Assembly: GCA_964036195.1 (NCBI GenBank)
Contig: OZ038458.1
Coordinates: 8,135,832-8,199,831 of the forward strand
Direction: 5' to 3'
Source: Sphaerolaimus hirsutus
Taxonomy: Eukaryota; Nematoda; Chromadorea; Monhysterida; Sphaerolaimidae
DNA: 64,000 nucleotides
The stretch's first letter is position 1, and every line of letters begins with the position of its first letter. The translations under genes and the position numbers were made by a program. Below the pieces are notes generated by a model, which did not search any database, was not told where the DNA came from, and was given only the letters and a program-made list of their open reading frames with translations. Positions 19,345 through 62,100 of this stretch are shown in pieces.

Positions 19345-20037
19345 ATGGTTTCGCCAACGGGTCACATCAGAAAGACCCTGGGGCCAGCAAAGCACAGGGT
19401 GGACAGCAGATTGGCAAGAGAATTTGCCAAATATGACCCGGAACTATTTGCGGAAGCATCAAAGGATGATAAGAGAACAGAAATGAGAAGAGTAATTGCA
19501 TCTATCAAACAGGAGGGTGCAAAATTAGAAAGTGCAATGATTGCAGTGAGAACTCAATTTGACGCATGGAGGGATGTCGTCAAAGACATTGACGAACCCG
19601 ATCAGATGGAACAAGAACAGAAGATGTACCAAGATGCATATGATGAGTATGCAAACATGTCAGATTTGGTGACACAGAAAGTGGCAGCCATGAATGTGTA
19701 CATCGAAGAGTTGCAAGATATGATCCAGCAACTGAGCGGAAGTACTATGTATGAAGTCAACACGGCATTCATACAGCAGATGGCTGCACAGATGGCTCTG
19801 ACAGCTCAGGGAGCTGCTCCGGGAGCCAGTTCAACCAATGCAACCACAGCAAAGAGCGTCAAATTGCAGAAACTGGAAGTTGAACAATTTACTGGGGAAA
19901 TTGTCAAATTTCGATCATGGTGGCAAATGTTCGAATCCCACATTCACAATCGGACAGATTTGGAGGACATTTCCAAGTTCTCATACTTGAGGAGCTTGCT
20001 GAAAGGCTCAGCATTTGGCATGATCAGTGGAGTGTGA
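19345..20037 (+). CDS. BEL gag, N-terminal part
   Basis: The ORF starts at an ATG in good context (AAAATGG) and encodes about 230 residues. There is an alpha-helical, charged N-terminal region, then a segment with the Trp-Trp/Phe/Tyr pattern typical of BEL-family Gag (DUF1759-like; FRSWWQMFESHIHN at about residues 191-204, ending with LLKGSAFGMISG). The frame ends at a TGA at 20035-20037, in the middle of the conserved domain. The continuation of that domain is found at once in the -1 frame, from about 20031. The break lies inside the domain and not at a protein boundary, so a one-base deletion in this copy, or an assembly error, is more likely than a natural stop. Confidence 0.75.
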   Translation: MVSPTGHIRKTLGPAKHRVDSRLAREFAKYDPELFAEASKDDKRTEMRRVIASIKQEGAKLESAMIAVRTQFDAWRDVVKDIDEPDQMEQEQKMYQDAYDEYANMSDLVTQKVAAMNVYIEELQDMIQQLSGSTMYEVNTAFIQQMAAQMALTAQGAAPGASSTNATTAKSVKLQKLEVEQFTGEIVKFRSWWQMFESHIHNRTDLEDISKFSYLRSLLKGSAFGMISGV

Positions 20038-33900: not shown

Positions 33901-34926
33901 GGTGAAAAACTAAAAAAGGTGCGAAAAGTAGTGATTTTGAGCGAAAATTGGGGGAAAATTTCTCAAAAACCACTCCAGATATATAGATAGCTGAGCGATT
34001 TGGGGGGGGGGGGGTCTTTGGGGGTAGTAGCCAAAAATTTTGCCTCGGGATAGATAGATAGCTAAGCGGCCTCCGGGATAGATAGATAGCTGGCCGATTT
34101 TTGTGGGGGGGCAGTCCCCCCCCCAGCCCCCCCCCCCTAGGAGACCCCTGACGTCATTCGTCCACTCGTTAGCAAGCATTGAATCTGGATCGGCACCAGT
34201 TGACATTTGGTGTCGATTTGTTACAAAAGAAAACATTTCCAGATGCCACCCAAGCCGATGATGATGATTTGCTGCTCGAAGCTGTCAGCTCGGTCGCGGC
34301 GTCAACTCAAAATGAAAAGTCGAAATCTACTGATGTCGATTTAACTGAAGAGCAACGGAAACGAATGGAGCAAAGTCGATTGAAAGCTATCGAATTGAGA
34401 AAACGGAAGATGGAGAGCGAAAACCAAAGTGGTTAGTGCTGTGTGTTTGTCGCAAAGTTGGCATTTTTAAATTGGCGCTTTTAAATTAGAAACGCGACAG
34501 GTAGCCTGAAGTTGAGTACAATCTGTCGATTATAGATGTACCGTACATCCTCTATTAGCCCCCCCCCCCATTTGCCGGGCTCCATAAACAAGCAGCCCCC
34601 CCCCTGGATACGTCTCTGCGCCCTCCTGAATATTTATAAAAATGATGAAAAAAAGTAATTCCCCGCGGGAACTAACGAAAATAAATAAATATACGGTAAA
34701 TAAGTATCAAATCTATCACGTATATTTCATTTCACCGTATGCAGTCACGCAAGACTCAACTGGACCCGGGATTGGAGACGCTTCTCCAAATCGAAGCGAA
34801 AATCCCGATTCGAGCACGTGCCCTGTGCCCGACGACCCGGCACCCGATGACTTCCCCGACAATTCTGGGGGAGTTTTTCTGGATGAGATGCGTGCGGTCG
34901 ACGATTTATTGTATGGGGATGATTAA
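30992..34926 (+). CDS. TIPIN: TIPIN / Swi3 / Csm3 family replication fork protection protein
   Basis: Partner of Timeless in the nuclear fork protection complex. Exons: 30992 to about 31163 (acidic N-terminus then PKKRR); 31779-31854; 31966-32088; 32422-32494; 34243-34431; 34745-34926 (TAA). Exons 3-6 join in consistent phase (0, 0, 1, 1). The Swi3 domain is recognised by LPEGLPALPKLFAKWKP, then EQWAHRLYPRARFDDF and CMTKLRLGMPL. The C-terminal EEQRKRMEQSRLKAIELRKR helix is typical of TIPIN. The last exon is acidic and ends DDLLYGDD. The exon 1 to 2 junction is one base out of phase with the best donor (31164), so a small exon or another donor is missing. Intron 4 is full of MITEs and holds an assembly gap. 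An upstream Met at 34179 belongs to a MITE, not to the gene. Confidence 0.82.
31490..31656. repeat. Small inverted-repeat element in TIPIN intron 1
   Basis: TTTTCAACAGAAATTTCGAA at the left is matched by TAAATTTCGGTTGAAAA at the right, with AACTCATAA and TTATGAGTT further in. A related half-copy (AATGCGTTCAATGCTGATTTAT) lies at about 37930-38070. Confidence 0.5.
32131..32296. mobile_element. Truncated CAGGGACGTA-family hAT element with GGCGCC words
   Basis: Starts in ATGGCGCCAGCGCCCTGGCG words and continues through a CCCCCC/GGGGGG inverted pair to the end AAATCCTGGATACGTCCCTG at 32296. No left terminus or target duplication is found. Confidence 0.5.
32550..33040. mobile_element. GGCGCC-rich element remnant around the assembly gap
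   Basis: GGCGCCATTCGTAGGCGCC-type words at 32550-32632 are followed by CATATACAGCG and, after the gap, by a GCGCGTTAGCGC palindrome. The same order is seen in the intact element 40033-40478, so this is an incomplete copy of that family in TIPIN intron 4. Confidence 0.5.
32731..32930. other. Assembly gap of 200 N
   Basis: A run of exactly 200 N. The 18 bases before it (32713-32730) are identical to the 18 bases after it (32931-32948). Confidence 0.99.
33082..33488. mobile_element. hAT-type MITE, CAGTGGCGTAGCC family
   Basis: An exact 8-bp target duplication GCTGCTGC lies at 33074-33081 and 33489-33496. Termini are CAGTGGCGTAGCCAGG and CCTGGCTACGCCACTG. It holds G/C homopolymer arms, GGCGCC words and a GCGCGCTTGCGCGC palindrome at 33350. 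Confidence 0.85.
33561..34226. mobile_element. MITE of the GTTGACATCGACACC family, split by a hAT element
   Basis: The left arm has TTGACATCGACACCAAATG and the right arm CAGTTGACATTTGGTGTCGA, its complement. The undivided copy at 48971-49131 shows the original order. The right end abuts the acceptor of TIPIN exon 5. Confidence 0.65.
33643..34150. mobile_element. hAT-type MITE, CAGGGGTCTCC family
   Basis: An exact 8-bp target duplication ACGTCATT lies at 33635-33642 and 34151-34158. Termini are CAGGGGTCTCC and GGAGACCCCTG. Arms contain GATAGATAGCTG words and G runs. Remnants of this family are at 36698, 43270, 44610 and 57594. Confidence 0.85.
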
Positions 34927-35434: not shown

Positions 35435-36118
35435 TAGGGATGGAAAAAAGCGCTTTTTTTAACGGCCCCGCTTTTTTTTATTAAAAAAGCGCTTTTTAAA
35501 AAAAAAACGCGCTTTTTTCGCTTTTTTTTCAAAAAATGTCGGGACGTTCACTAAAAAGCTCCCAAATATGGTTCTGCATCAATATATACAGGTATATCAG
35601 ACAAGTGGCAGTACTTGTGATGATATATAGCCATAGAATGGCTGTGTAGCCATAGGATAGCATTATAAGTGGCGATTTCTGACAATAAAAAAAAACTTTT
35701 AATTTTGACTCATTATGTATATCGCCCTTTGTGAATGTTTCGCGACTTAAAGTGAAGTGAGGCATGAAATAGTGCTTATAAATATGGCTTTAAGAGAAGG
35801 CTAATACATTGAGAGTAATGTTTTACACTGTAGAAGTATGTGGTAGGACATTGGCTGGAAATTCTATGCTACACTAACATATCACTACTTATTATTACAT
35901 GATAGCATACAGGAATAGAAGCAATTGAACTAAAAATGCCACAAAACCGATGAAAACAACCACCAGTGCTAATGTGCATGTGAAATCGCGCGCTTGCGCG
36001 CGAAAAATTGGAAAATACCTAGTGCATAAGTACTGAAATTTTTTGCCAGCGCTCTTTTTTAAAAAAAAGCGCTGGGACCCTTGCGCTTTTTTTTAAAAAA
36101 AAGCGCTGGCCATCCCTA
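35435..36118. mobile_element. hAT-type MITE, TAGGGATGGC family with AAAAAAGCGCTTTTTT arms
   Basis: An exact 8-bp target duplication CTAGTAAC lies at 35427-35434 and 36119-36126. The interior (about 35570-36010) matches those of the elements at 41678, 42566, 47022, 51372 and 55551, but the arms use a different word. It carries the GCGCGCTTGCGCGC palindrome at 35988. Confidence 0.85.
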
Positions 36119-37294: not shown

Positions 37295-37445
37295 TATGGT
37301 TCAAACGGGATCTCGATCCCGATCCCGGATCCCGTGAAATTCCGGGATTTAGCAATCCCGATCCCGAAACCCCGATCCCGTTCCCGAAATCTCAAAAAGT
37401 GAATCCCGATCCCGATCCCGAAAAGTCTATCCCGTTTGAACCCTA
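37295..37445. mobile_element. Short hAT-type MITE, TAGGGTTCAAAC family with GATCCC arms
   Basis: An exact 8-bp target duplication TGTAGGGC lies at 37287-37294 and 37446-37453. Termini are TATGGTTCAAACGGGAT and ATCCCGTTTGAACCCTA. It consists almost wholly of GATCCC words. Longer relatives lie at 54062 and 59078. Confidence 0.85.
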
Positions 37446-38338: not shown

Positions 38339-39851
38339 ATGGCTGACACATCGTTGGTGGACTTGGTGTCTGTGTGCATTCATTCGTTGCTGTATGACAG
38401 TGGAGTTTACTGCGCGGAGGCATTTGCACCAACTTTGGTTGCTGCCGGATGTGTGTTGCAGGTTTGTGGTGCGTGTTGGGTATTTTGGTTTGTGACTTCG
38501 TTCCTCTGAGTGTCTCGGATTGCGGTGTGGCGTTTTTCGTATTAATGCCCCTTGCCGGTGTCGTTGAGCATAAGCAGTCCGAATGCACAAGCCGTGCTTT
38601 TCAGCTAAGTTTGGCGACTAATAAAAATTATTTTTTCACATCCGTTTGACGTTTATCGCATACTCCATAACCCCCCCCCCGTGCAGCGATGCAAAAACCC
38701 CTCGGTGTGTTCGTACATCGACCAGTGTGTTCAAGCCGCGGTCGGCCACTCTCGCGCCGAAAATTCCCCACCCGTGTGCATCCGGCTGCGTTTCGGCAGT
38801 GCGGCGGCTACGCTCCGCTGTTTTGTGCTGGTTGAGGGTGCGGTGGTCAGATCGGTGCACAGGAAGTGGCTGCTGTTTACAGAGAGCTGGCGCGCAGCCC
38901 CACGCCTTTGGGTTGGTTTTACTGGGCTTTGGGAGTGGCAAATTGTGTAAGCGACTTATTATTGCATGCGAAGTGGCACTCCTAGACCCTGTGATATCGG
39001 AGCTAAGTGTCCTGTAAAGTGACAATTTTTTATTTTCACTGGACGTTTGTGATTTTTTATGAGTCTTTTACCATTGCTTACAGGGTCTGAGCGTCAAGGA
39101 CGTAGCCAGGGGGAGGCGGGGGGGCGGCCGCCCCCCCCTTCCCGGGTTGGATAAAAAATATGCCAGAAATGGCACTTTTGTAAAACGATTTTGATGGTAG
39201 TTCAGAAAACTTTTGCGCGCAAGCGCGCATTTCGTCGCCCTACACTATGGTTCATTGCTACCTTTGGAACTGATACTGATAGTTTGGAACAAAAAAGCAC
39301 TCAAAATCTGTAAAAGCCAATGTAAATGTAAAATACATACATGTACAGCGGTATTTGGCACCATTGCCAGCGCCATGGCGCGGCGCCTAGGCGCCATTCC
39401 TTTACCACGGATCAAATTTTAGGGGGCGGCCCCGTTCGCCGGGCTCCGTATACAATCCGCCCCCCCCCCGCTCAAAAATCCTGGCTACGTCCCTGCTGAG
39501 CGTGGCACTTAAATTCGTCCTTGCATGGAAGATTTTCACTGCACCGCTACGATCAAAATTGGTTTCACGCACGCCGATAGACATTTCCTCTCTCAAATAA
39601 CCCCCCACCCTACAGGGGCCATAAAACCCGACGTCTGGGACATTTCCATCCGGCCGTGCGACACTTTTGTCGTGCGACACGCGCTGCTGCGTCAATCTAC
39701 TCAATTCAGATTTCAATCCGCTGAGAATAGCCCTCATTTTGACCAGGACAGCGGAAGTGAAAGAGCCAAGGAGCTATTGCCTGTGGCGTCGGCAAGATTT
39801 GGTGCCAACTGTGGTGTGGATATTTTGGTGGAGTTGCAGGGGCGCCCCTGA
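38339..39851 (+). CDS. MAD2L2/REV7-like HORMA protein, probably disrupted
   Basis: REV7 is the HORMA-domain subunit of polymerase zeta and of shieldin. Exon 1 (38339-38461, 41 codons, phase 0) encodes LVSVCIHSLLYDSGVY, matching the REV7 start. Exon 2 (38687 to about 38947) continues with NPSVCSYIDQCVQA and IRLRFGS...RCFVLVEG, the expected middle of the HORMA fold. Exon 3 starts at 39084 but is interrupted after 11 bases by a hAT element (39095-39495). Its later part (HCTATIKI, about 39537-39560) and exon 4 (39616-39851, ending VDILVELQGRP and a stop) resemble the REV7 C-terminal half. The reading frame across exon 3 does not hold: one frame has TAA at 39510, the other does not fit exon 4. The gene is either damaged by the insertion or read from another allele. 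Recognition is by pattern only. Confidence 0.55.
39095..39495. mobile_element. hAT-type MITE inserted in the REV7-like exon 3
   Basis: An exact 8-bp target duplication CTGAGCGT lies at 39087-39094 and 39496-39503. Termini are CAAGGACGTAGCCAGG and CCTGGCTACGTCCCTG. It has G/C homopolymer arms, a GCGCGCAAGCGCGC palindrome at 39215 and GGCGCC words. Confidence 0.85.
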
Positions 39852-41175: not shown

Positions 41176-44100
41176 ATGGCGCCGGTCACCTCACCCCCTC
41201 TAAACGCGAAAGTGGAAAATTCAATTTTGAAGTCTCACTATGCAACTCTAGACATTAGAGCGCCCAAAAATACGCTTTTGCATGCTACTAAGCCTAAAAT
41301 TCACGGCAAAAGGTCTGCAGTAATTGAGGACCGTGAAAGAGCAGCCTGTAAACAACTGAAGCGGTTGACTGTATCTGATCGACTGTTAGATGTTGGCACG
41401 TCGCCAAATTTTGGAACGAGGAACTCCATTTTGGACGATGGCGTGAAATGTCAAGTTAATTGTGGCTTGGTCAGTAACGTGAAGGTATGTCGTGTTACGG
41501 ATGGGGATTGCTTACCTGGCTGTGCTTTTAAAGCTCAATCCAAGCACTTTTAGTGAAACGTACCCGCTTATCTGAATGTGCGTTCAAGGAACAGTAGCAC
41601 GGTGCCTCCGCCAACTAGTTCACATTTTCATTTATGAATTGCTGTTTGCAACTCGTTTAATTTAACAACTCCATGAGTAGGGTTGGCAGTTGATTTTTTT
41701 AAAACATCTGATTTTTTTTTCATCTGATTTTTAAAAAAATCAAAGGTTGGAAACTGATTTTAATTTAAAAAAATCAAAAGGCAAAATTTCTGGTAGACTT
41801 GCACTAGGTATTTTGCATTTTTTGCACACAAGCACGCAATTTCTTGTACATATTACCATTTGTGGTGTTTTCATAGGTTTTGGGGCATTTTTAGTGTAAA
41901 ATCTTCCATTTATTCATGTTACCATGTAATAATAAGCCATGATATGCTAGTGTAATATATAATATCAAACCAATGTGTGCCCACATACTTCTACAGTGTG
42001 TAACATCACTGTCAATGTATTAGCCTTCTCTTACAACCTTATTTAAGCACTATTCCATGCTGACCTTCACTTGAAGTCACGACTGTTCGACAAAAGGCAA
42101 TATACGTGATAAGTCGATGTAAAATGGATATTTTTGAAAGAAATCACTGCTTATGCTATTCCATGACTCCACAGTCATAATTTGACCACAATAGACATAA
42201 CAATACATTGTCTGACAGTAAACATACATATTTTTTTCTCTATACCCCGTTTTGGGCAATTTAAAAAAATCTGATTTAAATTTAAAAAAATCTGATTTAA
42301 ATTAAAAAAAATCAATTTAAAAAAATTGATTTTTGTATTGTCTGACACTTAACATACATAATTTTTTCTCTATACCCCCGTTTTGGGCGATTTAAAAAAA
42401 ATCTGATTTAAATTTAAAAAAATCAATTTAAAAAAAATTGATTTTTTACAAAAAAAATCAAGGCGTTTGAAAAAATTGATTTTTTTCCAACCCTATCCAT
42501 GAGTCTATTTGGATGGGCACTGCACTATTCCGCAAGTAAACCCATCCCGCATGTTGACTAGGAACTAGGGATGGCCAAGGTATTTTTCAAAGGTTTTTTT
42601 AAAATAAAAAACGTTTTATTTAAAAAAAACCCAACCATCGAAACCGTTTCGAAATTTTTAGTACTAAGCACTAGGTATTTTGCAATTTTTTGGCACGCAA
42701 GCGCGCAATTTCACATACCCATAACCTTTGGTGGTTGTTTTCATTGGTTTTGAATCATTATTAGTGTGAAAGCTTCCATTTGTTCATGCTATTGTGTCAT
42801 AATAAGCTGTGATATGTTAGCGTAGTGTATTCAAAGTGCCCCCATATACTTGTACAGTGTGAAAAATAACTGCTAATAGATTAGCTTTCTATTGTAACTT
42901 AATTTAAACACTATTCAATAGCCTACTTCACTTGAAGTCACAAATGTTCAACATAAGCCGATTTACATGATGAGTCCACATAAAACGGATATTTTTGACA
43001 GAAATCACTACTTATAATGATATCCCATGGCTCCACAGCCATTCTATGGCTATATATAACATCACAAAGTACTGTAACCTGTCTGGTTTACCTGTATATG
43101 TTGCCTCACGACCATATCTGGGAGCTTTTGAAAAAAAAACTGTTTTATTTTCAAACAAAACCATGTTTTTGAAAAAAACCCCGGGTTTTATTCAAAAAAC
43201 AACAACCTTGCGTTGAAAAAAACCTTTTTTGGCCATCCCTATGCAGGAACACATTTAATTATACTCGGCATGCTGAAAATAGGCAATAAAACACATGTCT
43301 TAATGATTTTGAAGGTAAAAATCTATAAGAAGTATGGAAACTAGCCATTTTGGGTGAAAATTAGGATAAAACTGCACAAAAGTGCTCCAGATAGCTAAAT
43401 AGCTAGGCAATTCGCTGGGGGGATGTTCAGGGGAAAGTTGCCAAAAAATTGTCCTAGGGATATAGATAGATAGCTGGGTGGTTTGGGGTGGGGTCAACCA
43501 CCCTACTCTCTTATCCCTGCAGGTATACTGGGTGCAAGCCTATTCCGCATGTAAACTCATCCCGCATGTAGACCCATTCTACCCGCAGGTGTAAGAAAGG
43601 GGCGCGGGTGACCCCACCCCAAACTGGTCAGCTATCTATCTATCCCTGGCACAAATTTTTTTGGCAACTTTCCCCTGAACACCCCCCCCCCCCCGCGAAT
43701 CGCCTATAGGGTGTCAAGTTTCCGTTTCCGCTTTTCGGCAGGAAAATTTTTTACCTTTCCGTTTTCCGGCAGCTGAAATTTTTTTACCTTTCCGTTTTCT
43801 ATTTTCCGGCAGCCAAATTTTTTTTACCTTTGTTTTCCAGCAGCTGAAAATATTTTACCTTTCCGTTTTTCCGGCCCATTTGTCTGTTTTCCGGCTGAAA
43901 AATGTTTACCTTCCTGTTTCCGTTTTTTTCCAGGCTATTTTTCTATTTTCTGGCTTGATTTTCAGTTTTCTGGCTTGATTTTCAGTTTTCTGGCATTTTT
44001 CCATTATTTTTCTAATCTGTATTTATCTTTTTTCATTTTTAAATCTTTTTCTTTTATGTGAAACTGCAAGCCAAACACATAAATAATTTAGGACACATAC

Positions 44101-47100
44101 TTTGCAGTCCGATGACTGTACTTTTTTACTGTTCAGTTACATCAAAGTTCACTTTTGCTAAATTCTTATTGTTGTTGCAGTGTACTTTTGCTACCTTTTG
44201 ATGATTTTTTGTTGGTTCAGTTAAGATTGAACTACAAGTGAAGTTACTGGCATGATCCATAGTTGCGGAATGTACAGCTACCACAATCAAAGCCAAACAG
44301 GCAAACCTGCATGCAGGTCTTTCTTCAAAATAATTTTTCATTTCCATGCAAATTTCGCTCTTTTTTCCATTACTGTGAAAATTTCGCTTTATTTGTTCCG
44401 TTTCCGTTAAAATCTCGCTTTCCGTTTTCCGGCATTTCATTTTTCCGTTTTCCGGCCGATAATTTTTTTCCGTTGTCCACTGAGTGAAAAATTTTACCTT
44501 TCCGTTTTCAGGCAGGAATTTTTTTACCTTTCCGTTTTCCATAAAGTGAAAAAAATTTTACCTTTCCGTTTTTCCGTTTTCCGTAGAACTTTTTTTTACA
44601 GCCTAATCGCCTAGCCATCTGGCTATCTGGAGCACTTTTGAGCAATTTTTACCCAAAATCGCTAATTTTCACACTTCTTATAGATTTTCACCTTCCAAAC
44701 TATTAAGTCATGTGTTTTATTGCCTCTTTTTTGCATGCCAATTAAAATTAAATGTGTTCCGGGTCAACATGCGGGATGGGTTTACATGCGGAATGGTGCA
44801 GTGCCGGTATAATATGTATATGGCAGAGTTGCGAAAGCGTATTTACGCTTACCCGAAATACCCGGGTAAATGGGTATTTATACTTACGCTTACGCTTACG
44901 CTTTCATAAAATACCCGTACGCTTTTTTACGCTTTCCCGGCCAAAATACCCGGGTACTAAAAGCGTAAAAAAGCTTTTCACACGGTTCAGTTTTACACTT
45001 TTGAAAAAGCATAAAACCACAAAAAAGAGTGAACGAAACTGTGCGTACCAAAAAATTACTGCGTGCCTGCAGTGCTGGAAATCGTGGCACATTTACAAGT
45101 TGTGTCGCAGTATGAATGTCTTGCTAATACTGTGTCGTCGAGCAAAATCGTGGCTTCAGATAAGAAATTTTGGGCTGAAATGGATTCCAACGACAATGTT
45201 GTCGCCGTAGACAGCACTAACTCTAAGTTGGAAGATATCAAGGTGACTGACCGTGTTTCTTCTAATAGAATGGCAGCCTCTAATAGAACGGCACCTCCCA
45301 TATAACGGCAGGCAAAAAAAGTTGACGAAAAAAATTAAACGGTGCTCTCCTATTATAAGAAATACGGTAAGTGTCGCTGCCGATGAATTGCCAAACAACA
45401 TATGAGGGCAGACTACTAAGTGAACATCCGAAAAATGTCGCTGAGAGCTTGATTTGGAATGAATTCACTGAGAAAACGTCTCTTAAAAAAATTTTACGCT
45501 TACGCTTTTATTTACGCTTTCCCAGGTATTTTAAAAATACCTTACGCTTTAAGTATCCATACTGAAAATTTGGAAAGTGTATTTACGCTTACGCTTACGC
45601 TTTCCAAAAATACCGGTATTTTAACAACTCTGGTATATGGGTCTATATGCGGGATGGGTTTACATGCGGAATAGGCTTGACGACACATTTGGATGTCTAA
45701 TGCAGTACATTGTAAACACACACACAATAAACACTAACCCCTCACACCCCTCACACAGACAACCGCGCGTGTGCAGAACACCTTATTGTCTACCTCTCTA
45801 GAAGAAAAGGCATCGCCATTTGCCACTACCAATACTTTTCTGGGTGGCAGCTCTCTCCAGAAAAATGCTTCACCAATTTTACACCGCGCGTCACTTTTAG
45901 ATGGAAAAAGTGCAAAACCTGAACAGAAGAAAGAAATTCAGAATTTTGAGTTCGATCTGCCCGAATGCGGTGCCGATGAAATAAACGTTGATGTGAAAGA
46001 ACTACAAAATCATCTGGATGGGTACACTGCTGATGACAGTACCTCTGTTGATTTGCATTCGGTGCAGTGCGTGTCAGAAAATGCTGAACTGGCAGAGGTT
46101 TTTCAGGCGAAGGTGCTTTTTTGTTTTTGTTTTGTCTTTTCATTTTTTCTCAGTCTTTGGTGCCACTGCTTATTGCCTGTATGTACGCTTTTTGCAGGGA
46201 TAGGATAGGGGGGGGGTTTACCCTTATCTATCTATCCGGTGGGCAAAATTTTGGGCTACTATCCCCTAACCCCCCCCCCCCCCCAAAAAAAAAAAAAAAA
46301 AATCGGCCAGCTATCTGAGACCCAATTGAGAAACTACCTCATTTTATACTCTACCGTATTACCTCGAAATACCCCCATGGGGGTTTATTATTTCGCCAGC
46401 AAAATTTGAGGGGGGGTTAATTCGAGGGGGGGGGGGTTTATTCGAGGGGGGGTTTTATTATTTCGTCAGAAATTTTCGGAAGGATCGTAGTAAATAGTAG
46501 GCATTTGCATACCCAAAATAGGTAATAAATGTGTCCAAACAGGATATATTTGGACATAAAAACGTAGATAGCTACACAAACTACTCTATGTGTAGCTGCA
46601 ATGCAAATTAACAGTAATATACATCATGTACATTGCGTACATGACGTATTTATTATGTACATGACGTACATCATTCCGAAGGGGGGGGGGTATTTCGAGG
46701 GGGGGGGGGTTATTACTTCCCCAGCCCATTTTGAGGGGGGGTTAATTCAAGGGGGGGGGGATAATTCGAGGTAATACGGTATATCGTTTGAACCCTAATT
46801 TATACCCCTACACAACTCAGACGGGTCTGGTACACTCGGTTTGTTCAGCTCTTGTGGACCCATCTGCATTCAAGCAAGACACGCAAACTGCAGTGAAAGA
46901 TTCTATTTGTGCGGCTGTGCAGAAGTTGGCTCGATGCCAGGAGGGTGAATACGTGCTAAAGGTGGGTGCAAGGTTTTTATGATCGTGGGTGGGTAAGTTG
47001 CCAGAAAAAGTGTGGTTTAAGTAGGGTTGGAAAAAAACGTTGTCAATGTTTTTTATAATAAAAAACTTTTTTTTTAAAGCTCCCAGATATGACCTTGTGT

Positions 47101-50100
47101 CAACATATATAGGTACCGTATATAAGACAGTGGCAATACTCTGTGATGTAATAAATGACCATACAATGGCTGTGGAGCCATGGGATAGCATTATAAGTGG
47201 TGATTTGTGTCAAAAATATCCATTTTTTGTTGACACGTTTGTATATCGCCTTATAGTCGAACGTTCGTGACTTCAGGTAAAGTTTGGCGTGGAATAGTGA
47301 TGAAACAAGGTTATAAAAGGAGGTTGTTACTTTGGGAGTGAAGTTACACACTGTGGAGGTACATCGGAAGCACATTACCTCAATATTATATACTACAGCA
47401 ACATATGATGGCTTATTTGTCCATGGTAGCACATAGAAATGGATGCTTTGATACTAAAAATGCCACAAAACCAATAAAAACAACCACCAATGTCAATTTG
47501 TGCGCGAAATTTTGCAAAATACCTAGTGCTCAGTACTAAAAATTTCGGCCGATGTTTTTTTATTAAAAAAAACATTTCGGACGTCATCTTTCTTTTATTA
47601 AAAAAAAACGTTTAAAAAAAAACGTTTAAAAAAACATCGGCCAACCCTTGGTATAAGTGATATATTTAGCTGGATGAGTTGCCTGAAATGGGTGGATAAG
47701 TTTAGGGTGGCAGACGGCCTTTCGGTACGGCCTTTCGATAAACCGTACGCTACGGTAAATTTTCTATTATGCGGTAAACGGTGCGGTACGGTAAATCTTC
47801 AATTTTGCGGTAAACGTTTTGGTACTGTAAATCTGAAAAGTGCGGTACACGCTACGGTACCGTAAATTCGGCGGAAACACTCAGCGCATCCAAGCTCCCA
47901 GTTCATCCATGCATCTTACAGTGCGGCGGATATTCAGAGATAATTGCGGCGCCAATCCGCCGTCAGCCCCCCCCCCCCACCACCGTCCCTCGGTCCATGT
48001 GTGCGGTGACACTATCAGCTGGCAGCTGGGATGCGCTGAGAGTTTAGATGCGGTGAGGCACACCGTGAGTAAATTCTGCCACCCTAGATAAGTTGTAAGA
48101 AATTACTTTGGTCTTGGAGTTTATTGCACCCGTGTTATCTTCTGGATGTTGTTAATGTAATGAGTGTTCCTTCGTCTTTTTTCTCTTTCACAAATGTTCC
48201 CATTTATTACGCAGACGGCTCTATATGCGCGCTGCGAACTAAACATGCGCACCCCAGCTAATTATTTAGTGGCTTTGGCAGCGAGCCAAGAAAAGTGCCG
48301 CTCACACTTGAAAAAGTATTTTGGCGCAATTATCAGGATCCCGTCAGATTTGATTGAAGTGGCAGATTTGTACGGAACTTTGGTTAGTGATAACGTAACT
48401 CTTTCGTGATAACATCATTTTCAGCTTGGCAAAATATCTAAGCTATCTGTTTTTAGGGAGCTAAGCGAAATGCGAAGGGGCGCTATCCACTGCCGACGGC
48501 ATTGCGGAAGGCAATTGTCGAGAAGTTTCCAGACTTCGATGAATACCAATTAGGTGAATAAAATTCGACATTTCTTTTCTAACTTCAATAATCAGTTCTA
48601 TTCTTATCTCTCTGAACTCAGCCAAGCACAACAAAGAAAAACGGCAACGGCGTGGCAGAAAACCCCAAGGTGTACAAAAAGGTGGTAATGCTCGAGGAAG
48701 ATTTGGTAAACAGAGACAAGTGGGAAGGGGACGGCCGGCGGGGGCAATTTTGGCAAATGGCCAGACAGTATCTGAAGATGTTCCGCATAAACCCGTCGGA
48801 TACAATTTGAAAAGGCTTATTCGTCAAGTGCACATCAGGAGCCCGGTGCACTTGGTGATGGCTATCGTGGGCAAGAAGTACGTGTTTGATTTGTACTGAT
48901 CACTGACGCCTTTTTTGTGCAAACTTTATTTTTTTTGTGATCTTTGTAGGTGCCAGCATCATTTCATTGGCCCCGCACACGCTAGTTGACATCGACACCA
49001 AATGTCAACTGGTTCCATTCCCAATTCAAAGCTTGCGTTTGAACGTCTTTCTTCGGTTCGTCAGCAAGCGTTCAATCGGGATCGGCACCAGTTGACATTT
49101 GGTGTCGATGTCAACTAGCGTGTGTGGGCCCAATATCACAACAGATTAGAAATTTTAACGTCCTAATTTCTATCCAATTCACCCTATCAGAAAATGTGGA
49201 AATATATAAATATTTGAAACTTTTTATTCTAATTTGTATTTTATCGTTACAGAGTACGCACTCTCTATCTTGAACATCATCCATCAAATCTCTAGTTTTA
49301 TCTATCGTTATTTTGTGGGTCAATATTCATTCTCGTTATTTTGTGGGTCAATATTCATTCTCGTTATTTTGTGGGTCAATATTCATTCAAAATGTACTAG
49401 ATTTTAATTGTATAAAGTATTCAATCCTCCAACCTCTTTCAAAATAGTCAAAAAAACACACACATTGAAACACCTTACCAGGTACCCCAGCGATGCCGTA
49501 TCGTTCTCCCGGACTGGCTTACCTGGCACCTGGTCTGAGCAGTTGGCTGGCAAAAGAATGAAGTTGCAAGTGCCCCACACCTGGGAAACTCAGTTGGCGC
49601 AGAAAGGTAACACCAAGGAGGTGTGGCAGGAGCTCATTGGTTGGTTCGGTTTTGCTCTGTTGTGATGGTTGCGGCAGCTTTGTAGATCGCGGTGTAAGAG
49701 CCTTCTGATATTTTGCAAGCCGGCACTGAATCCCGTAGAAAAAGCCCACACACTCTAGTTGACATCGTAAATTCGTATCAATTAAATCCGTGTCATATGT
49801 CAACTAAATAACACAAAAAATTTCATGGCAACGGAAACAATGAAAATGAAGTGTCATGTTGCAAAATTAACTATGCTCTATCAAATAGCAAAGTAAAAAT
49901 CACATAATTCACTAAAATTCAGTTGACATCCAGCGTGTGTAGCGCCATTGTGATGTCATGTGTTCAGCATTTGCATTACGCGCATGGTAGATATAAAAAT
50001 GTCGCAGATAGCAAGAAGTTGCCCTACATGGCAATGATTCGCAACCTGCGCAACATCATTAAATCAGGCGTATCTGCTCAGCACCATTCCTTTTTGCTCC

Positions 50101-53100
50101 GAAGAATCAAGGATGAGGTCAGTTTTCTGTCCTTTAAATTGTGCATTTTTCGATGTTTGATTATCACAGGTTTATTTATTTTTAAATGTATTTCATCTGC
50201 AGAAAGCCGTTATGAACAGCCGACTGTTTCCATTCCGCTTTTTCTCCGCTTTTGAGGTGCTGTACGAGCTGAAGGCGGCATTAGAAAAGCGTAAGTTGGA
50301 ATGATTTTGTTTTGCGAAAGGCACAATGCAAAATCTGCTGTAAAGTGCATGAATATCTATGCGTAAAACTATTTACTTCTCACCAAAAGCTGAAATGAAA
50401 TGGCACCTTTAAGCTTGATTAGAATACCTAATCTCTATTTATCTTATCTATCTAAAAATTATCTAATTTCTGAGACAGAACGTTCAGAATATAAAACGTA
50501 TTTAAAACAATAACAGCACTGGTGTAACGGATCACATAGCTGAAATACGTTTTGTCACACTTAACCCATTCGCATTCTTCAAATGCTGGCTCTTGAAGCC
50601 ATTGTCTCAGTGCCATCTGGTGGCGCAATTTGAGAATGTTAACTTTGAATTGATATTTTAATATGCATCATTGTCTGCAGAGCCACTTCGCATATCGCAG
50701 TGCTTATTTCATGTCGTCGCTTCGATCCCGCAAACCTGGTAGAACATCAAACGTTATCTATCAATCTTTCACAATCCCGTTTCAGCCGCGAAACCAACGC
50801 CTGCAGTCAGCGGACGGCGAAGCGGCGTCAAAAAGTCTGCGCCTAAAAAAAAGCCCGCGCCGCTGCGCTACGATGTGAATACTTTGGCGCGCTACAAACA
50901 GGCATTGGACAACGCGCTGGCCACCGCCACCAGGCACAACGTGCCCCCCATGTCCGGCCAGGTGTTGCTCCTGTGCGAATGCGGCGAGGAACAGAGTGCG
51001 CAAAGCGCGGAGAGGGGCAGAAGAAGCAAAATTAGTGTGGGTGGAGTTATTTTGCTGTAATATTTGATTTGCTATTGCTTTATTTTATGATATTTCCTTT
51101 TTTTTGTATTTGTGTATGGTGGTTGCAAAGTGACCAATTCTCATTATTATCCCATCATACAGTTGTTCTTATACTAAAACCATATGCCTTTTCCGCAGAG
51201 AACCGACCAAGCGCTGCTGCTTTCATTGATATGTGAAAGTTCGTGTGAGAATGTGCACTTTTGGCTCTGTGCCAGAGTCGGTCAGGCGGTAAGCAAATGC
51301 AATGTCGAGCCAGTGAATGCAAGTGAAAATGTGCTTGATCGAATGCACAGATTAAAGGACCAGGTAATGAATCGGGATGGCCGAAAAAGGTTTTTTTAAA
51401 CGTCAAGGGTTTTTTTTCAAAAAGGGGTTTTATTTTAAAATAAAACCGTTTTTTTCAAAAGCTCCCAGATATGGACATGAGTCAACATATACAGATAAAT
51501 CAGACAGGTGACAGTACTTTGTGATGTTATATATAGCAATATAATGACTAGAGTCATGGGATAGCATTATAAGTGGTGATTTCTGTCAAAAATATTCGTT
51601 TTATGTCGACTTATTAGACAGTGTAGCATTCCGCAAAAAAGCCCATTCCGCATTTTTGCCCATCCCGCAAATGTGCCCATCCCGCACACAGGTGATACAA
51701 CTTGCGGGATGGGCACATTTGCGGGATGGGTCACATAATTTGCTGGATGGGCACATGTGCGGAATGGTTTTTGATGCGGAATGGGCCCTTGCCGACTTAT
51801 TATGTATATCGGCTTTTGTCGAATGTTCATGACTTCAAGTGAAGTTGGCTATGGAATAGTGTTTAAATTAAGTTACAATAGAAGGCTAATTAATTAGCAG
51901 TGATTTTTCACACTGTACAAGTATATGGAGGCACATTGACTGGATATTATGTACCACACTAACACAATATCATGGCTTTTTATGACAGAAATAGCAGGAA
52001 CAAATGGAAGCTTTTACACTAAAAATGCCTCTAAGCCAATGAAAAACACCTCAAATGGTAAAGTGCAGGTGAAATTGCGCGCTAGCGCGCAAAAAAAATG
52101 CAAAATGCCTAGTGCTTAGTACTAAAATTTTTGGCCAAGTTTAAAAAAACTGTTTCGATGGTCGGGTTTTTAAAAATGAAACGTTTTTATTAAAAAAAAC
52201 CTTGGCCATCCCTAGTAATGAAAACTTATTTTTATATGCTTAAGCTTGTTTCATTATTGTGACTATAGCTCTACACACTAGTGACAACTGAAAATTCCAA
52301 AGTTAATAGATATGTTATTTACACATTTGAGTTAACCGGAATGAGGTGTCCAGCAACTACTGTTTACAGAGATCTAAAGTTAGTCAGTGGCGGTGCGCAC
52401 ACTAGACATGTGTTGAGACATGTGTGTCAACTGTACAGTGGCAGACCACTTTGCGTCTTCACGGTACGGTACGGCTTTGCGCTACACGGTGCGGTACGGT
52501 AAATTCTACCACCCTAGTCCACTGGTCTGTTTTTTAGGTTTAGGCTTCTAAGATTTAGGCTTCGCGTGTCGCAGGGTGATCTCCAAATGCACATGCGGCA
52601 CTGTTGAAAAACAAATAAGTGCATTTGAATATCGCTCTGGGCGCGTGAAGCCGAAATCTGAGTTGACACAGTTGACCTCACATATGTCAACTAGTCTGTG
52701 GGGGCCGCCATTATGGTCAACTCGAATGTGTTCAAAACAGATTGATCGGTTTCCCGAAATTTGGTTGTTACCTAGCGTGCGTAACCACAATCTTTTATCT
52801 GGATGTAAAATATTAAATGTGTATACTAAAAAATCTAACGTTCTTTGGCGCCTAAGAAACGTGCCAGTATACAACAGAGTTGCGAAAGTGTATTTACACT
52901 TACCCGAAATACCTGGGTAAATGGGTATTTATATTTACACTTACACTTACACTTTCATAAAATACCCATACACTTTTTTACACTTTTCTGGGCAAAATAC
53001 CCGGGTACAGAAAGTGTATTTTTTTCTTTCAGATGGCCCTTTTGCATACTTTTGAGAAAGCATAAAAAAGGGTCATGTACAAAAAATGCGTTGAATGTAG

Positions 53101-56100
53101 AAAATATGGCAAATGTACAAACTAGCCTTTGATCTACAACCTTTGATCAGTAATCATGGTATTCTACAGTTTCATCATACTTTTGTAAAAAGCACAAGAT
53201 CAATGGAAGTTCACCAACTGGACACAAAATCAACTGGCTTTTGCATTGACATTTGCTGCATGTCCATTCTTGCATTTAAACAGTGTGTATCGCATTGCTT
53301 AATCAGTAAAATATCAACACTGAATAACTGCCATTATTAGGGAACGTCATACTACTACAGTATTTGTTACAGTCTGAAATGTTTCATAAAAGGCTGTAAA
53401 ATGTGAAATAATGCATGAAAATGATAAAAAAATGATCTAAATGTGGGAACAGCGGTTTTTTCTAATGCTCAACAGTTATAGCTCTTTCTAAAAAAAATTT
53501 TTTACACTTACACTTTTTTTTACACTTTCCTAGGTATTTTTAAAATACCTTACACTTTTGGTATCCATACTCACAATTTGGAAAGTGTATTTACACTTAC
53601 ACTTACACTTTCCAAAAATACCGGTATTTTAACAACTCTGGTATACAACACCCCCGTGAAAATCCCAGTCCTTGTCGGAAGTAGACCCATTCATTTACTG
53701 CTCTTCACATTTTGTCTAACCAAAAGTTATTCGCTGTTTTCCATTCAGCTCGAGGAAATGCGGGATTCCCCAGATGGTTCTCCCGAAACTGTTTTTGGCA
53801 ATATTTTGGAAGACTTCATGGTGCATCATCGCCAGGTAATTTCCATAATCAAATGTATCTGTTGTTCATTCGGACTTGTTGACATATTTTTGACTGGGGC
53901 ATATTACACATCTCAATTCATTACACATCTTAACCCACTACCCAACTAATTCTCCCCATCACACATCTAAGGTTTTAAGAGATTAGCATGTTATTTGACA
54001 CGTCCACTCTACAGTGGGTAGCAAACGCAAAGACATGACTTTGTGTTCACTGTAGAGCGGGTAGGGTTCAAACGGGATCCCGATCCCGATCCCGGATCCC
54101 GTGAAATTCCGGGATTTACCAGTCCCGATCCCGATCCCGATCCCGAAACCCCAATCCCGATCCCGATCCCGAAATCTCAAAAATACCAATCCCGATCCGG
54201 AAAGTTTTCAAATCCCGATCCTGATCCCGAGAAACTCCCAAGTCCGGGATCCCGATCCCGGAAAAATTAGTGGAAATTATAAAAAGTGAAATAATGACGT
54301 TTTTGCATGCAAAAAAGTGGATGCAAACCCCCAGCGTCAATTTTATGCCACTTTTCTGGCATCCAACAGTGTTTTGAGACCTTTATGAACAACTGTGGAT
54401 GCCAGAAAAATGGCCAAAATCTCTATCCCTAGAACCCAATCCCGATCCCGGAAAAATGCATATCCCAATCCCGATCCCGTGACCCCAATCCCGGCCAATC
54501 CCGATCCCGATCCCGATCCCGAAATCTCAAAAAACAATCCCGATCCCGATCCCGAAACCCCAATCCCGCTCCCGATCCCGAAAAGTCAATCACGTTTGAA
54601 CCCTAAGAGCGGGTATGTCCACTAATATCACTATCATCCAACCAAATTTTGGCACGCTGACAATGGAAACAATACATGCTGCCAGTGCCGCTGAATAATA
54701 AGCTATGTTTGATCGAATGATAGACGTTTATCGACCAAACATGCAGATAATCGCTGTTTATCTGCAGACTGTCTAAATGTGTAATGGGTTTAGATGTGTA
54801 CCGGCACAGGGTCATGTATTTTCTACCTCCCAGCTCGATCACGTATTTTGTACCTCCCAGCTCGATCACGTGATTTGGATCACTGACAAATCTGACCATC
54901 GCACTGCTGTAGTTCTAGACACTTTTGCAGCCAGATACAGACACACTGTTAATGAAGATTTGCTTTTGGCCGCTGTTAATGTCTCTGGGTTTACTGGGTC
55001 CGTTAACTGGTTAAATTTTCGATTTTGGTGACTATGAATCTTGACATTTATTTCCGAATTAGGTTTGTTATTTTTTCAGTCCGATACCATTTTCAAAATC
55101 AAGTCGCAACCTGCACGTGAATGGCTTTAGCGACCAAATTCTGCGTTTTATCGTTGAGCGGCGCAGTGATTCTGCATTGATAAACAGGGTAGAAAATGTC
55201 GATCAGAAATTTGAACTGGTCGCAGCAGACAAGATGAATAATGTTATTTTGAAAGGGGTGGAGAGATTGGAGAAGAAAGAAATTGTGAAAAAGTTGGCCC
55301 AGGGTGTTTTGCCTAGTTCCGGTGCCATGGCGTGAGTGGGGAAACATTTTGAAAAATTCTGTACAATTTTCCTTTAGTAAGCTTATATTCCACTGACTTG
55401 ACACTGCATGTGCTGTTTCTTGTGTCTTTATATATCGGCATGCCTACGATAACTAAGGTGTACAACTCTTGAAGGAAATAAGGAATTTTTTTAGCTGATG
55501 TAAAAAATTGTTTAGTGGAGACATTTCCCCTGTTTTAAAATGGTTGCATCTAGGGATGGCCGAAAAAGGATTTTTTCAACGCAAGGTTAAAAAAAACCCC
55601 GATTTTTTTCAAAAACAGGTTTAAAAAAATAATAAAACCGTTTTTTTTCAAAAGCTCCCAGATACAGTCATGAGTCAACATATACAGGTAAATCAGACAG
55701 GTGACAGTACTTTGTGTTGTTGTATATAGCCATAGAATGGCTGTGGAGACATGGGGTATCATTAAAAGTAGTGATTTCTGTCAAAAATATCCGTTTTATG
55801 TCGACTTATCACGTATATTGGCTTTTGTCGAACATTCATAACTTCAAGTGAAGTAGGCTATTTAAATAGTGTTTAAATAAAGTTACAATAGAAGGCTAAT
55901 CTATTAGCAGTCATTTTTCACACTGTACAAGTAGGCACTTTGACTGGGTATTATACACTACACTAACATATCATGGCTTATTTTGACACAATAGCATAAA
56001 CAAATGGAAGCTTTCACACTAATAATGATTCAAAACCAATGAAAAATAACCACCAAAGGTTATGGGTATGTGAAATTGCGCGCTTGCGCACAAAAAAATC

Positions 56101-59100
56101 GCAAAATACCTAGTGCTTAGTACTAAATATTTCGGCCAAAAAAAACGGTTTCGATGGTTGGGTTTAAAAAAAAATAAAACGTTTTTTATTTTACAAAAAC
56201 CTTTGAAAAAAACCTTGGCCATCCCTATTTGCATCCATAAGTGATCGTTGGCGCGCTGCCAATGTTCACTGCGCACGCATATCCATATCAAACTGTTCAC
56301 TTATTCATAACCCTCCCATCACAGCTCCCAAACTCCGATCAACCTGCGTGTATTCATTTCGTCCACATTCACCGACATGCACTGGGAACGTCAAGTGCTA
56401 ACACATTGCATAGCGCCATTGATACAGCGCAGAGTTGCGAGTGCTGACACTTTTGGTGGTGGCGACATGAATGTGAATGTGTTTGTGCAGTTTGTTGATT
56501 TGAGGTGGGGCGTGCCGCAGGGATATAATGTGTGGGAGAGTAGGGCCGGGTTGGTGGCCATTTGATTTTTGACATTTTCTTCTTCTTAATTTTGTCAAAT
56601 TCTGAAATTCAACCCCCACTGTGTCATTTCGAAAAACATGTTTTTGGAAAATTTATTGCAGCACTCATTGCTATTATTCACCATTCTGACGTTTTTGCGC
56701 TGCACGTAAATTTCGTTTAGTTTTTTTTTGGCACACCGCTCAGCACCATGGGATGTATGACTTATTTATCTATTTTTGGACAAAACTTCAGACATGATTG
56801 GCAATTTGGGAAATAAGGTGTCAAAAAATCCCGAATCATGTATCCATAAATATTGTTACCGTATTTCCTCGAAATACCCCCCGGGGGGTGATTGTTTCAT
56901 AGTGGTCCCGAGAGGGGGGGGGTTATTATTTTGCCAGAAATTTTTTTAAATCCTAGTACAAAATCGTCGTTTGTGATGTTCACTGGGGTAGAAAAATGCA
57001 TCAATAACTGACATGGATAGACTCCTGTATAGGGTGGCAGAATTTACCGTACCGTACTGTACCGTACCGTACCGTACCGTACCGCATTTTTGGAAAAATT
57101 ACCGTACCGTACCGTTTACCGCATTTTTAGAAATTTACCGTACCGTACCGCGTACCGCATTTTCCAAAATTTACCGTACTGTACCGCGTACCGCACTCAT
57201 TTACCGCAGAAAATGCGGTAAATTTTACTCAGATTGACCTTAAAAATGCACCTTAAATTGACTTTAAAATGTGGTGTTCTGCAAATTTTTTTGCGCGCAA
57301 GCGCGCAAGTTTGACAACATTGTTTAGACTGATTTGAAGCTTTTCCATTTGCGTATGCAATATGGCTGTAACTCTTCATTTAAAATCAAGCCATGTGCTT
57401 CAAATCGCACTGTAGGTGTTTTACATCACCCTCAATGTTTTGAGCTTATTTGTTGTAGGTACATATGTTTGATGTAGGGTAGTATACAAAAGGTAATCAA
57501 AAGAAAAATGAATGTTTGAATGAAATGACAACATGAATTGAAATCTGTTGCTTTGAAATCTGTGGCAAATTGAAATCTTATGGCTACACAGCAGGGGTCT
57601 CCAATGGGGGGTTGAAGTGTGTCCCCAAATTGAATTCATGGCTTATTGCCATATGCACTTATATACTTTTTTTTACCATTTTCACCCACTTTTAGCAATT
57701 ATTCACCCACTTTTAGCAATTTTTCTCCATTTCTTCCTTCTGAACCTTGAAAAGGCCTATATATTGAACCACTGCATTGTGGTTAATGTAATTCTATGTT
57801 ATCGCACTGTTATTGTGTTCTAAAGTCCATTAACACATTGCATAATTCAATTTAGTGTCAATTCATGAAGCAAAAGTTGTCTGTAGTCCGGCATTGGTAC
57901 ATTTCTGACAAGCGAAAATTTACCGTACCGTACCGTACCGCGAACCGCACTTTTCAAATTTACCGTACCGTACCGTTTACTGCAAAATTGAAGATTGACC
58001 GTACCGTACCGTTTACCGCAAAAGAGAAAATTTACCGTACCGTACGGTTTACCGCAAGGCCGTACCGTCTGCCACCCTACTCCTGTAGACTAATAGTAGT
58101 ATGTAGATGGTAAATATAAACACTGTTCAAACGTGATTACGACATTGTTTTAACGTGTGTTCTGCACTACGCAGAACACAAACTGCAGTATTTGTCATGT
58201 ACGTTCTCTTTACACTCAATCTGGGGGGGGTATTTCGAGGGGGGGGGGTGATTGTTTCATAGTTGTCTCGAGAGGGGGGGGGGGGTCAAACGGGGGGGGG
58301 GCGGGTTTTTCGAAGAAATATTGTATTTGTATCTTTCTTTTGAATGGCGGTGCCCATGCTTCTTGTTTTAATGGAAAATTGACAAATTGACCAGTGTCAT
58401 TGACACGTTGCAAAAAAACAACCATTCATTCCATCCATTCAATGCCATTTCAGTGCCGTGGAACAGTGCCTCTTGGAAGCGAACAAAGCTGACATTTTAG
58501 TTGCATTTCTGGGTGATCGGCACGGCTTTCAGCCATCATATCATGATTTGGTGGAAATTACTGAAAAGAACCGGGACACGATCAAATTGCAAATGCAAAA
58601 ATATGCCAGTCTTTTTGCAACGCCGCTGTCCCCATCTGTTACTGAGTTGGAAATTGCAACATTTTTGGAGAAATTCAAGAATTATTCTGGGCAAAATTCC
58701 GATGTTGCTCCAGATATATGTGTGTTCATGAAAAAGTGAGCTCTTAAAATTTGATCGGCTATTATTTCAGATTTCAATATCTTGCATTTTCAGACTGTCT
58801 TGTTTGAAGTGCCCTAGTAGGGAGGAATTTAGGGAACGAAATTGTGTTGAAATGATGAGAAATTCCATTGAAAGGGATGTACCTGGAGAAAAAATCCATT
58901 CGTTTGTTTAGTTGCAGATGTTTTCTTCGTTTTTCATATATTTACATTACTTATTCGAAATGCTTACTTTTTCTTATCACATTTTTTTGTAAAACTCCAA
59001 ATGATCGCAGATACAACTTTGATGAAAGTGAACAAATGACGTTGACAAAATTTGCTGATAAAATTTATGACCAGGTGTAGGGTTCAAACGGGATTGACTT

Positions 59101-62100
59101 TTCGGGATCGGGATCGGGATCGGGATTCACTTTTTGAGATTTCGGGATCGGGATCGGGATCGGGATTGGGGTTTCGGGATCGGGATCGGGATCGGGATTG
59201 GTTTTTTGAGATTTCGGGATCGGGATCGGGATCGGGATTGGCCGGGATTGGGGTCACGGGATCGGGATCGGGATTGGGATAGGCATTTTTCCGGGATCGG
59301 GATTGGGTTCTAGGGATAGAGATTTTGGCCATTTTTCTGGCATTCACAGTTGTTCATAAAGGTCTCAAAACACTGTTGGATGCCAGAAAAGTGCATAAAA
59401 TTGACGCTGGGGGTTTGCATCCACTTTTTTGCATGCAAAAACCTCATTATTTCACTTTTTATAATTTCCACTAATTTTTCCGGGATCGGGATCCCGGACT
59501 TGGGAGTTTCTCGGGATCGGGATCGGGATTTGAAAATTCTCGGGATCGGGATCGGGATCGGGATTGGTCTTTTTGAGATTTCGGGATCGGGATCGGGATC
59601 GGGATTGGGGTTTCGGGATCGGGATCGGGATCGGGACTGGTAAATCCCGGAATTTCACGGGATCCGGGATCGGGATCGGGATCCCGTTTGAACCCTAACC
59701 AGGTGAAGCAAAGTGTACAGAGGAAGCTGGATGACATGAAGTCAAAGTCAAAATTGGTTATTGTCTTACTTGTATTTATTTATTTTCTTACTTGGTTAAA
59801 AATGATTAGGATAACGAGTATAGAAAATTGGGAAAATCTCAATTTCGGAAGGCCTAGTGCATAAGTACAAAAATTTGGCTGGTGTTTAAAAAAAAAAAAA
59901 CTTTTTCGATGCCTGTTTTAAAAAAACCCCATAAAAAGACAGTTTAAAAACACCGGCCATCCCTACCCACACTTGTCATATATCAGTCTCAAATACTGGT
60001 AACTAAATATATACTGATCAAACTGGAAGGAATTTTAGAAGGTTTCATGCAAACTGCAAAACATTATCCCAGTTACACCCCGGTAATTCCTTGTCAACTC
60101 GATTTGAAACGATGTGCGCCCGCGGTTGGATGAAACTGGGCCAAAATGAGAAGCACTGCGACACCGGGCGATTGAAGAGAATTTCTGTCTCGGTTGCAAA
60201 TTCCCTTGCAAAACGGAAAAGTGTTTTGATTTGTGGCAGCGCCGGGGTGGGCAAAAGCGTGGCACTGGTTGGTTATTTATTTATTTTTGTTTATTTAGGT
60301 TTACGGGGATCACACACGATTTCAACCACTAATTTCACGGAAACAAAAGCGGTCGATACGTTGTCAATAGGGCCCACTTGGGTTTACACTTTCTTATCAT
60401 TGCTGGATGACTGGATGACAGATTGGAGAAATTCACATCCGACTGTTATTGGCCGCGGAAACGAGAAATCAACCGAATAAAAGCCTGGTTTGAGGAAAAA
60501 ATCGTGTCTACCTACGTGCAAAATATACGAAGAACCACCAATTCCTACAAACTTTTTTGTGATTGCCTGTTGTCAAAACCAACAATTTTAAAAGTACCAT
60601 TTTCGCTCCAAAATATCTAGTGTGCGTAGCGACATCGTGCATCAATACGGTTTTTTTGCACACCTGGCGCCACTCTCAGACCCTGTAAATTGTAAAATGT
60701 CATGCAAAGTGTCAAAGTCACGAAAAATTTCCCACAACTAGTGATGGAAAACGCACCGTTAAAAATGGCACCGCACCGGCACCGGTGCCATTCCTCAGAA
60801 AGGGCACCTGGCACCTTGGGCACTGGCAAAAAAATGGCACCGCACCGCACCGGCATGGGTGCCAATCCGAAAAAATAGCACCGGCACCCTGGGACACCGG
60901 CCGCTTGCCGGTGCTAGCTCCGAAATGCACCGCACCGGGCTGAAAGTTCTGAAGGATTTATCTGGTACTTTTTTAGAGGCCGCACCTTCGGAAGTGCATT
61001 TTTCCATGAATTCTCTATCGATTTTGATGTTTGAGCATTCAAAATGATCAGAACGATGTGGGGATCAGTTTACGAAGCATTGCGAATGATAGCTCAAATA
61101 TTTAATCTGCTCCAATACACATACCGGTCTACTGTCTGGGGTGGAAATTGTACAGGAAATGTTATTATGTTTTGTCATATACTGACAACAAATTATGAAC
61201 AAAATGGCAAAACAAACATAATATTTATGATTAAAGAAAACACAATCATGTATCCCCTCTTCAGAAGTGTATGGCACATTTCAAAGTAAATTTGACGAGA
61301 CTTTTTTTCTAAAAATGACTACAACCAGTTGAATCTAGAATATTGATCATATAAATATGAATAAGCACATGCTGTTGACGAAATTTTACACCCTATTACG
61401 ACTTGGCCGGTGCCTTTCCCAGTGCCTTTTAATTTGGGACTGGAGCTAGCACCTTTGGCACCGTCTGAAAAATGGCACCGCATTGCACCGGCACCGGTGC
61501 TATTCTGGAAAAATGGCACCAGCACCGGCAGGGCACCCCCGAATGCCCCGGTGCCTTTCTATCACTACCCACAACATGTCAAAATTCCAGCAAGGTAAAA
61601 GAAAATATGTCATCTTGCAGGGCATTCTAAATACCGTATTTGCTTGAATAATCCCCCTGGGGGATTATTATTTCGTCAGACTTTTTTGAGGGGGGACTAT
61701 TCAAGGGGGGGGATTATTCGAGGGGGGGAATTATTGTTTCGTCAAAACTTTCAAGCATGTTTCTATCAACACATTTAATGAAATATGCTTTATTAACACA
61801 AGAACGTGCCATTTTTGTTAATATTGGGCACAAACAATTGATCAAATCTTTTGAAGGGGGGTATTATTCGAGGGGGGGAATTATTATCTCCTCACTCGTC
61901 TTACACGGGGGGATTATTCGAGGGGGGAATTATTCAAGGGGGGGAACTATTCAAGCAAATACGGTACATTACATTTGACACTTTGCATGTCATTTGGCGT
62001 TTTACAGGGTCTCTGGCCTCTGATTGGCGATGAGAATATGATTACATGTTATAGTGGTGGCAACTTCAATTTCCAGTTCACAAATTGACTGTTTGCTTTC

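Follow-up and report, generated by a model that had tools for sequence, protein, structure and literature searches.

Most introns are too old to reveal their origin. In maize, the hAT element Ds is reportedly spliced as an intron when it lies in an exon, and its insertion creates an 8-bp duplication of host sequence. Titles on the splicing of Ds as an intron (Giroux 1994, Dennis 1988, Wessler 1991) appear in the reference list of PMC3260210. Introners are described by Gozashti 2022 (PMC9860276) as groups of similar introns whose similarity reaches both splice sites; those of Florenciella carry DNA transposition signatures and derive their donor as well as their acceptor from the target, and most introner families leave the length of the mRNA unchanged. 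For Drosophila sechellia, PMC3296678 describes the Doc1053 intron, which was formed by one retrotransposon insertion and added five amino acids to the product. The present analysis concerns 64,000 nucleotides of the nematode Sphaerolaimus hirsutus (assembly GCA_964036195.1, contig OZ038458.1, positions 8,135,832 to 8,199,831, forward strand; hereafter the window), in which a 620-bp non-autonomous hAT-type element interrupts a coding exon of the gene TEP1 and is probably spliced out as a new intron.

The TEP1 locus resembles maize Ds, as far as the listed titles describe it, in that a hAT element in an exon would act as an intron and in the shared 8-bp duplication, but it lies in an animal and its splicing is predicted here. 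With the Florenciella introners it shares the signatures of DNA transposition and the derivation of both splice sites from the target, and its mRNA would keep its length, as in most introner families, while differing from introners in being one case in a family with no AG|GT preference across 15,514 ends. With the Doc1053 intron it has in common that one transposon inserted into a gene of an animal; however, Doc1053 is a retrotransposon and added five residues, whereas the TEP1 frame would be restored exactly. No report of a hAT element giving rise to an intron in an animal was found in a literature search of titles and abstract beginnings, with most subscription journals outside its coverage. 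The mechanism is already known from maize Ds and introners, and TEP1 provides a clean, fresh example.

A hAT-type element within a coding exon of TEP1

The element and its immediate surroundings comprise the following features (window coordinates).

59078 to 59697, + strand: non-autonomous hAT-type element of 620 bp; terminal inverted repeats perfect over 17 bp, interior rich in TCGGGA
59070 to 59077, + strand: first target duplicate ACCAGGTG, holding the proposed donor CAG|GTGTAG at 59075
59698 to 59705, + strand: second target duplicate ACCAGGTG, holding the proposed acceptor ACCAG|; the exon restarts at 59703
59078 to 59094, + strand: left terminal inverted repeat TAGGGTTCAAACGGGAT
59681 to 59697, - strand: right terminal inverted repeat

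A reading of the same DNA from its letters alone (the sequence-only reading) had described a 620-bp element with an exact 8-bp duplicate, and both copies are indeed in place. TCGGGA-type repeats form a large part of the interior. Scanning the window for exact 8-bp duplicates around inverted termini gave 25 rows, the present element among them and overlapping or low-complexity ones included, where each of 10 shuffles yielded 0-2; the duplicate and terminus structure exceeds chance. Because the element is flanked by its duplicate, the pre-insertion DNA held a single, uninterrupted ACCAGGTG.

The host gene is, from the homology of its predicted product, TEP1, as the sequence-only reading had it. 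The spliced reading of the surrounding exons matches the solved domain 'telomerase protein component 1' (E 2e-10) as well as Pfam DUF4062, and a profile of 121 homologues (121 of 131 proteins, with P0001-P0005 and P0008-P0012 left out) gave 12 colinear exon matches from 48164 to 58736 on the + strand. Beyond the window follow four more good profile matches (at 71593, 72456, 75555 and 77234 when the window coordinates are extended, all with E <=1.5e-5), one of them out of order in a part of the profile expected to hold repeated propellers, and then weak matches. Searching with the 283-residue model protein returned four proteins, all with DUF4062, while an X-padded query returned eight, including P0006 (a spider TEP1-like protein) and P0007, which in turn led to the TEP1 family among its best 120 of 3757 matches. 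In a tree with 15 homologues the window protein was placed next to a spider sequence, on long branches. Domain names past DUF4062 are putative and follow from profile position and the P-loop. The exons of the model are as follows.

48203 to 55331, + strand: TEP1 exons further upstream, holding ten of the twelve matches in colinear order over positions 217-789 of the profile
56325 to 56549, + strand: exon with the start of DUF4062; donor alternatives within 1 bit
58454 to 58735, + strand: exon with the later part of DUF4062 and beyond
59011 to 59074, + strand: 64-nt exon piece before the element, ending ...KFADKIYDQ; acceptor 11.8 bits, itself in the training set
59703 to 59756, + strand: exon piece downstream of the element (VKQSVQRKLDDMKSKSKL), extending a conserved helix, with its own donor at 59757
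60073 to 60267, + strand: next exon in the model, with the P-loop GSAGVGKS as expected for a NACHT-type domain; borders chosen by hand

When 59074 is joined to 59703 the product reads ...TLTKFADKIYDQ|VKQSVQRKLDD... in phase 0, and the positions of CAG|GTG and ACCAG|GTG and the in-phase rejoining held up as originally described. The joined stretch KFADKIYDQ|VKQSVQRKLDD aligns without gaps along a helix conserved in TEP1, roughly LxxFxxxVLxxLWNAIxxxFP (13 of the 121 homologues inspected), and together with the phase this bears out coding continuity across the junction. The profile score is 72.5 bits without the downstream piece and 75.7 bits for the joined peptide, the latter value being reached by 13/1000 shuffles of that piece and by 7/1000 random open 54-mers, with control maxima of 79.7 and 91.5 bits. 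The gain from 59703-59756 is modest, but it agrees with the in-phase donor at 59757, which is among the best 2.7% of 1943 GT sites in a scoring trained without it. In the unspliced frame a TAG stop follows directly after GTG, and the upstream piece is 64 nt long, so that skipping of the exon would shift the frame.

The reading as a young hAT insertion that struck a proto-splice site in a TEP1 exon has good support. The element would have entered the coding exon at ACCAGGTG, duplicating 8 bp and thereby setting an AG|GT proto-splice site on each side, both sites coming from the target and not from the element. The donor (CAG|GTGTAG) would lie in the first copy and the acceptor (CCCTAACCAG|GTG) in the second, and the spliceosome most likely cuts out the element plus one duplicate (628 nt), leaving the reading frame unchanged. 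Precise removal from TEP1 RNA as a new intron is the predicted and likeliest outcome, and the insertion may have survived because it is spliced.

Splice sites and the predicted RNA fold

The element donor scores 2.9 bits, within the range of 0.2-9.6 bits for 14 native donors scored by leave-one-out (4/14 native lower), and lies at the 76th percentile of GT sites in 40000-63900. The acceptor scores 4.8 bits, against 0.5-11.3 bits for 14 native acceptors (again 4/14 native lower), and lies at the 90th percentile of AG sites in the same region; one native TEP1 acceptor reads cttaccag|GTA. These scores are rough, as several of the 14 native intron borders were picked among close alternatives and in the native pair 51041/51199 donor and acceptor stem from two different candidates. 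The predicted fold contains all 17 terminal pairs, which brings the termini together and may assist splicing, and in it the GGU of the first duplicate pairs with the ACC of the second, as does the ACC of the first with the GGU of the second.

Several observations weigh against precise splicing. The donor is weak, with about a quarter of the GT sites in 40000-63900 scoring equally well, and GT sites inside the element (59201, 59640, 59413 and 59567) score 4.5-6.4. The acceptor has no clear pyrimidine tract, and the GU of the donor would itself be paired in the predicted fold. Moreover, the AG|GT coincidence is the reason why the TEP1 case was chosen, and the insertion is so young that intact downstream exons are uninformative on the function of the allele.

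The perfect 17-bp termini and their predicted pairing also suit a pathway that reads the terminal-repeat hairpin, and not splice sites, to remove the element from RNA. Such 'SOS splicing' has been reported for DNA transposons, although the term occurs in none of the papers listed by the literature search (12 of 192). Since this pathway needs no AG|GT in the duplicate it leaves the coincidence unexplained, and it is not known in this animal; we regard it as highly improbable here.

A different history would be that GACCAG|GTGAAG was already a native donor and that the element, inserted at an existing exon-intron border, merely lengthened an old intron. CAG|GTGAAG in fact outscores the first copy as a donor (4.6 vs 2.9 bits), and such hits occur: the duplicate GTAATGAA of the hAT-like element at 51372-52214 coincides with a plausible native donor, CAG|GTAATGAA, and the family copy L052 (see below) may be another. 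However, 59703-59756 extends the TEP1 helix in frame, its omission causing the (modest) drop in profile score given above, and it ends in the high-ranking in-phase donor. This history is quite unlikely.

Age and mobility of the family

The genome was searched directly (348 Mb, 762 contigs). Two copies, at C15:9609682 and C3:7703098, score 1119 bits, equal to the element itself, and are thus identical to it; three more round to 100% identity and ten to 99%. Among 30 copies read, which came from 43 reported matches with fragments included, 28 have perfect 8-bp duplicates, all different, and the remaining two agree at 5/8 and 2/8 positions. One copy, L004 on contig C133, has a sister locus (L066) 18 kb away that is 99.87% identical over 1500 bp upstream, is free of the element and holds a single GCTCCAGA. 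Either the locus had been duplicated before the element inserted, or two haplotypes were assembled end to end; on either account the L004 element appears to have arrived recently with the expected duplication. An empty TEP1 allele was not found in the assembly, where the flank 58800-59069 is single-copy. The identical copies and the empty counterpart of L004 bear out the proposed mobility of the family, and a hAT family currently or very recently mobile, and hence a young insertion, is well supported at the level of genome sequence.

The assignment to the hAT type is supported as well. Termini of hAT elements are short, inverted and start T/CAGNG, a consensus that the 17-bp perfect termini, starting TAGGG, fit. 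At C2:29257186 (L051, L070) lies a roughly 1-kb element, the one examined among 28 hAT-domain matches in the genome, that begins with the 13-base terminus of the family, TAGGGTTCAAACG, and differs in sequence beyond it. It is bracketed by TCAGGTGC, the second copy lying 5 bp past the right terminus, and holds the end of a hAT transposase with the hAT dimerisation domain PF05699 (E 7.6e-12). This domain in an element with the same terminus, together with the 8-bp duplicates, supports the assignment. The 1-kb element is a remnant, and action of its transposase on the 620-bp copies is only putative. A 30-base terminus pattern had no exact match in viral or prokaryotic contigs, a search from which records of the same or a very near genome were possibly excluded.

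Two relatives lie in the window.

54062 to 54605, - strand: 544-bp relative, 532/543 aligned bases (98.0%, 78 gap columns), duplicate AGAGCGGG, within a TEP1 intron
37295 to 37445, - strand: short relative, 139/151 aligned bases (92%), duplicate TGTAGGGC, one terminal mismatch (TATGG)

Both had been reported as lying in nearby non-coding DNA, and both are real, each with its own 8-bp duplicate; the description is refined in that the first sits between two TEP1 exons, that is, in an intron, and the second has a mismatched terminus. A lone exact terminus, TAGGGTTCAAAC, was also seen at 46786-46797 (- strand) beside a G-rich satellite, its partner end being absent in two scans.

Target choice and the introner comparison

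The 13-base terminus occurs 15,514 times in the genome (7752 + 7762; control 8), which would correspond to about 7,700 copies if both ends are intact. AGGT lies within the 8 bases before the terminus at 148 of these ends (0.95%), a share lower than that of AG|GT among window 8-mers (1.40% and 1.33% on the two strands; binomial P 5e-6); among TEP1 exonic 8-mers it is 1.36% (35/2577). Because the AG|GT share of targets is below that of window 8-mers, the family has no preference for proto-splice sites, and a specialised AG|GT preference was rejected.

Reading covered 32 of the 148 AG|GT ends (the first 30 fetched, TEP1 and L006). In the first 30, 24 loci had a right end and a duplicate matching at least 6/8 bases, and no clear exonic case was seen among those 24 by open frames and spot Pfam checks. 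Both ends were read at 54 loci, and of these TEP1 alone is clearly exonic with AG|GT in its target, exonic status being judged by open frames, with Pfam run on 8 frames. L052 (C3:10553151), which may be exonic or lie at a native donor, is a candidate for a second such case; its duplicate CTTCAGGT/CTTCAGGG shares an open frame with a chitin-binding domain and stands 40 residues past it. The L004 copy, for its part, is inserted in a 121-residue open frame and its duplicate GCTCCAGA has no AG|GT on either strand; this frame looks coding to us, and a Pfam search found no family in it.

The suggestion that the family as such is able to seed introns is weakened by these results: it is the target that supplies the splice sites, AG|GT shows no excess at insertion sites, and among the loci read no clear exonic case was seen besides TEP1. 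The comparison with introners holds for the mechanism but would not extend to membership. That a live hAT family with thousands of copies acts as an animal introner, several of the 148 AG|GT ends being exonic and spliced and the hairpin making weak sites usable, appears doubtful. The TEP1 insertion is best read as a chance hit on a proto-splice site that would have survived through its spliceability, and not as the work of a specialised introner.

A serious alternative, though in our view a somewhat unlikely one, is that TEP1 is broken in the assembled individual by a recent loss-of-function insertion, the element being retained or mis-spliced so that the protein ends at DQV-stop, before the NACHT domain. 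Identical copies elsewhere imply that there was no time for selection, the donor is weak with stronger GT sites inside the element, and the family has also struck the coding-looking L004 frame, where GCTCCAGA offers no AG|GT. On the other hand, about 1.4% of exonic 8-mers would by chance place AG|GT in the duplicate, and the TEP1 donor and acceptor are both in the native range. Precise splicing remains the likeliest reading because an AG|GT target would be a 1.4% accident unless survival required it.

Other elements in the window and elsewhere

Other families are represented in the window by hAT-like elements that have duplicates of 8 bp and, for example, TAGGG, CAGGG, CAGTG or TAGTG termini; they were seen at 7073-8008, 33082-33488, 33643-34150, 35435-36118, 39095-39495, 41678-42495, 47703-48086, 51372-52214 and 57030-58079. 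Those at 51372 and 57030 are located in TEP1 introns; the former (51364-52222 with its duplicates) has TCGGG/TAGGG ends, and GTAATGAA starts at the plausible native TEP1 donor CAG|GTAATG. A Bel/Pao retrotransposon occupies 19324-28041, and the end of its long frame matches Pfam Monjiviricetes_fusion, a viral fusion glycoprotein, which suggests that it carries an acquired envelope gene. A similar env-like frame is present at L001.

Implications

With identical sister copies and an empty counterpart of another copy the insertion is recent, and the birth of an intron would thus be directly testable in this nematode. The population may contain animals with and without the TEP1 insertion, and insertions of the same family into coding frames without AG|GT provide a matched control with which to ask, in one genome, whether the target sequence decides between an intron and a mutation.

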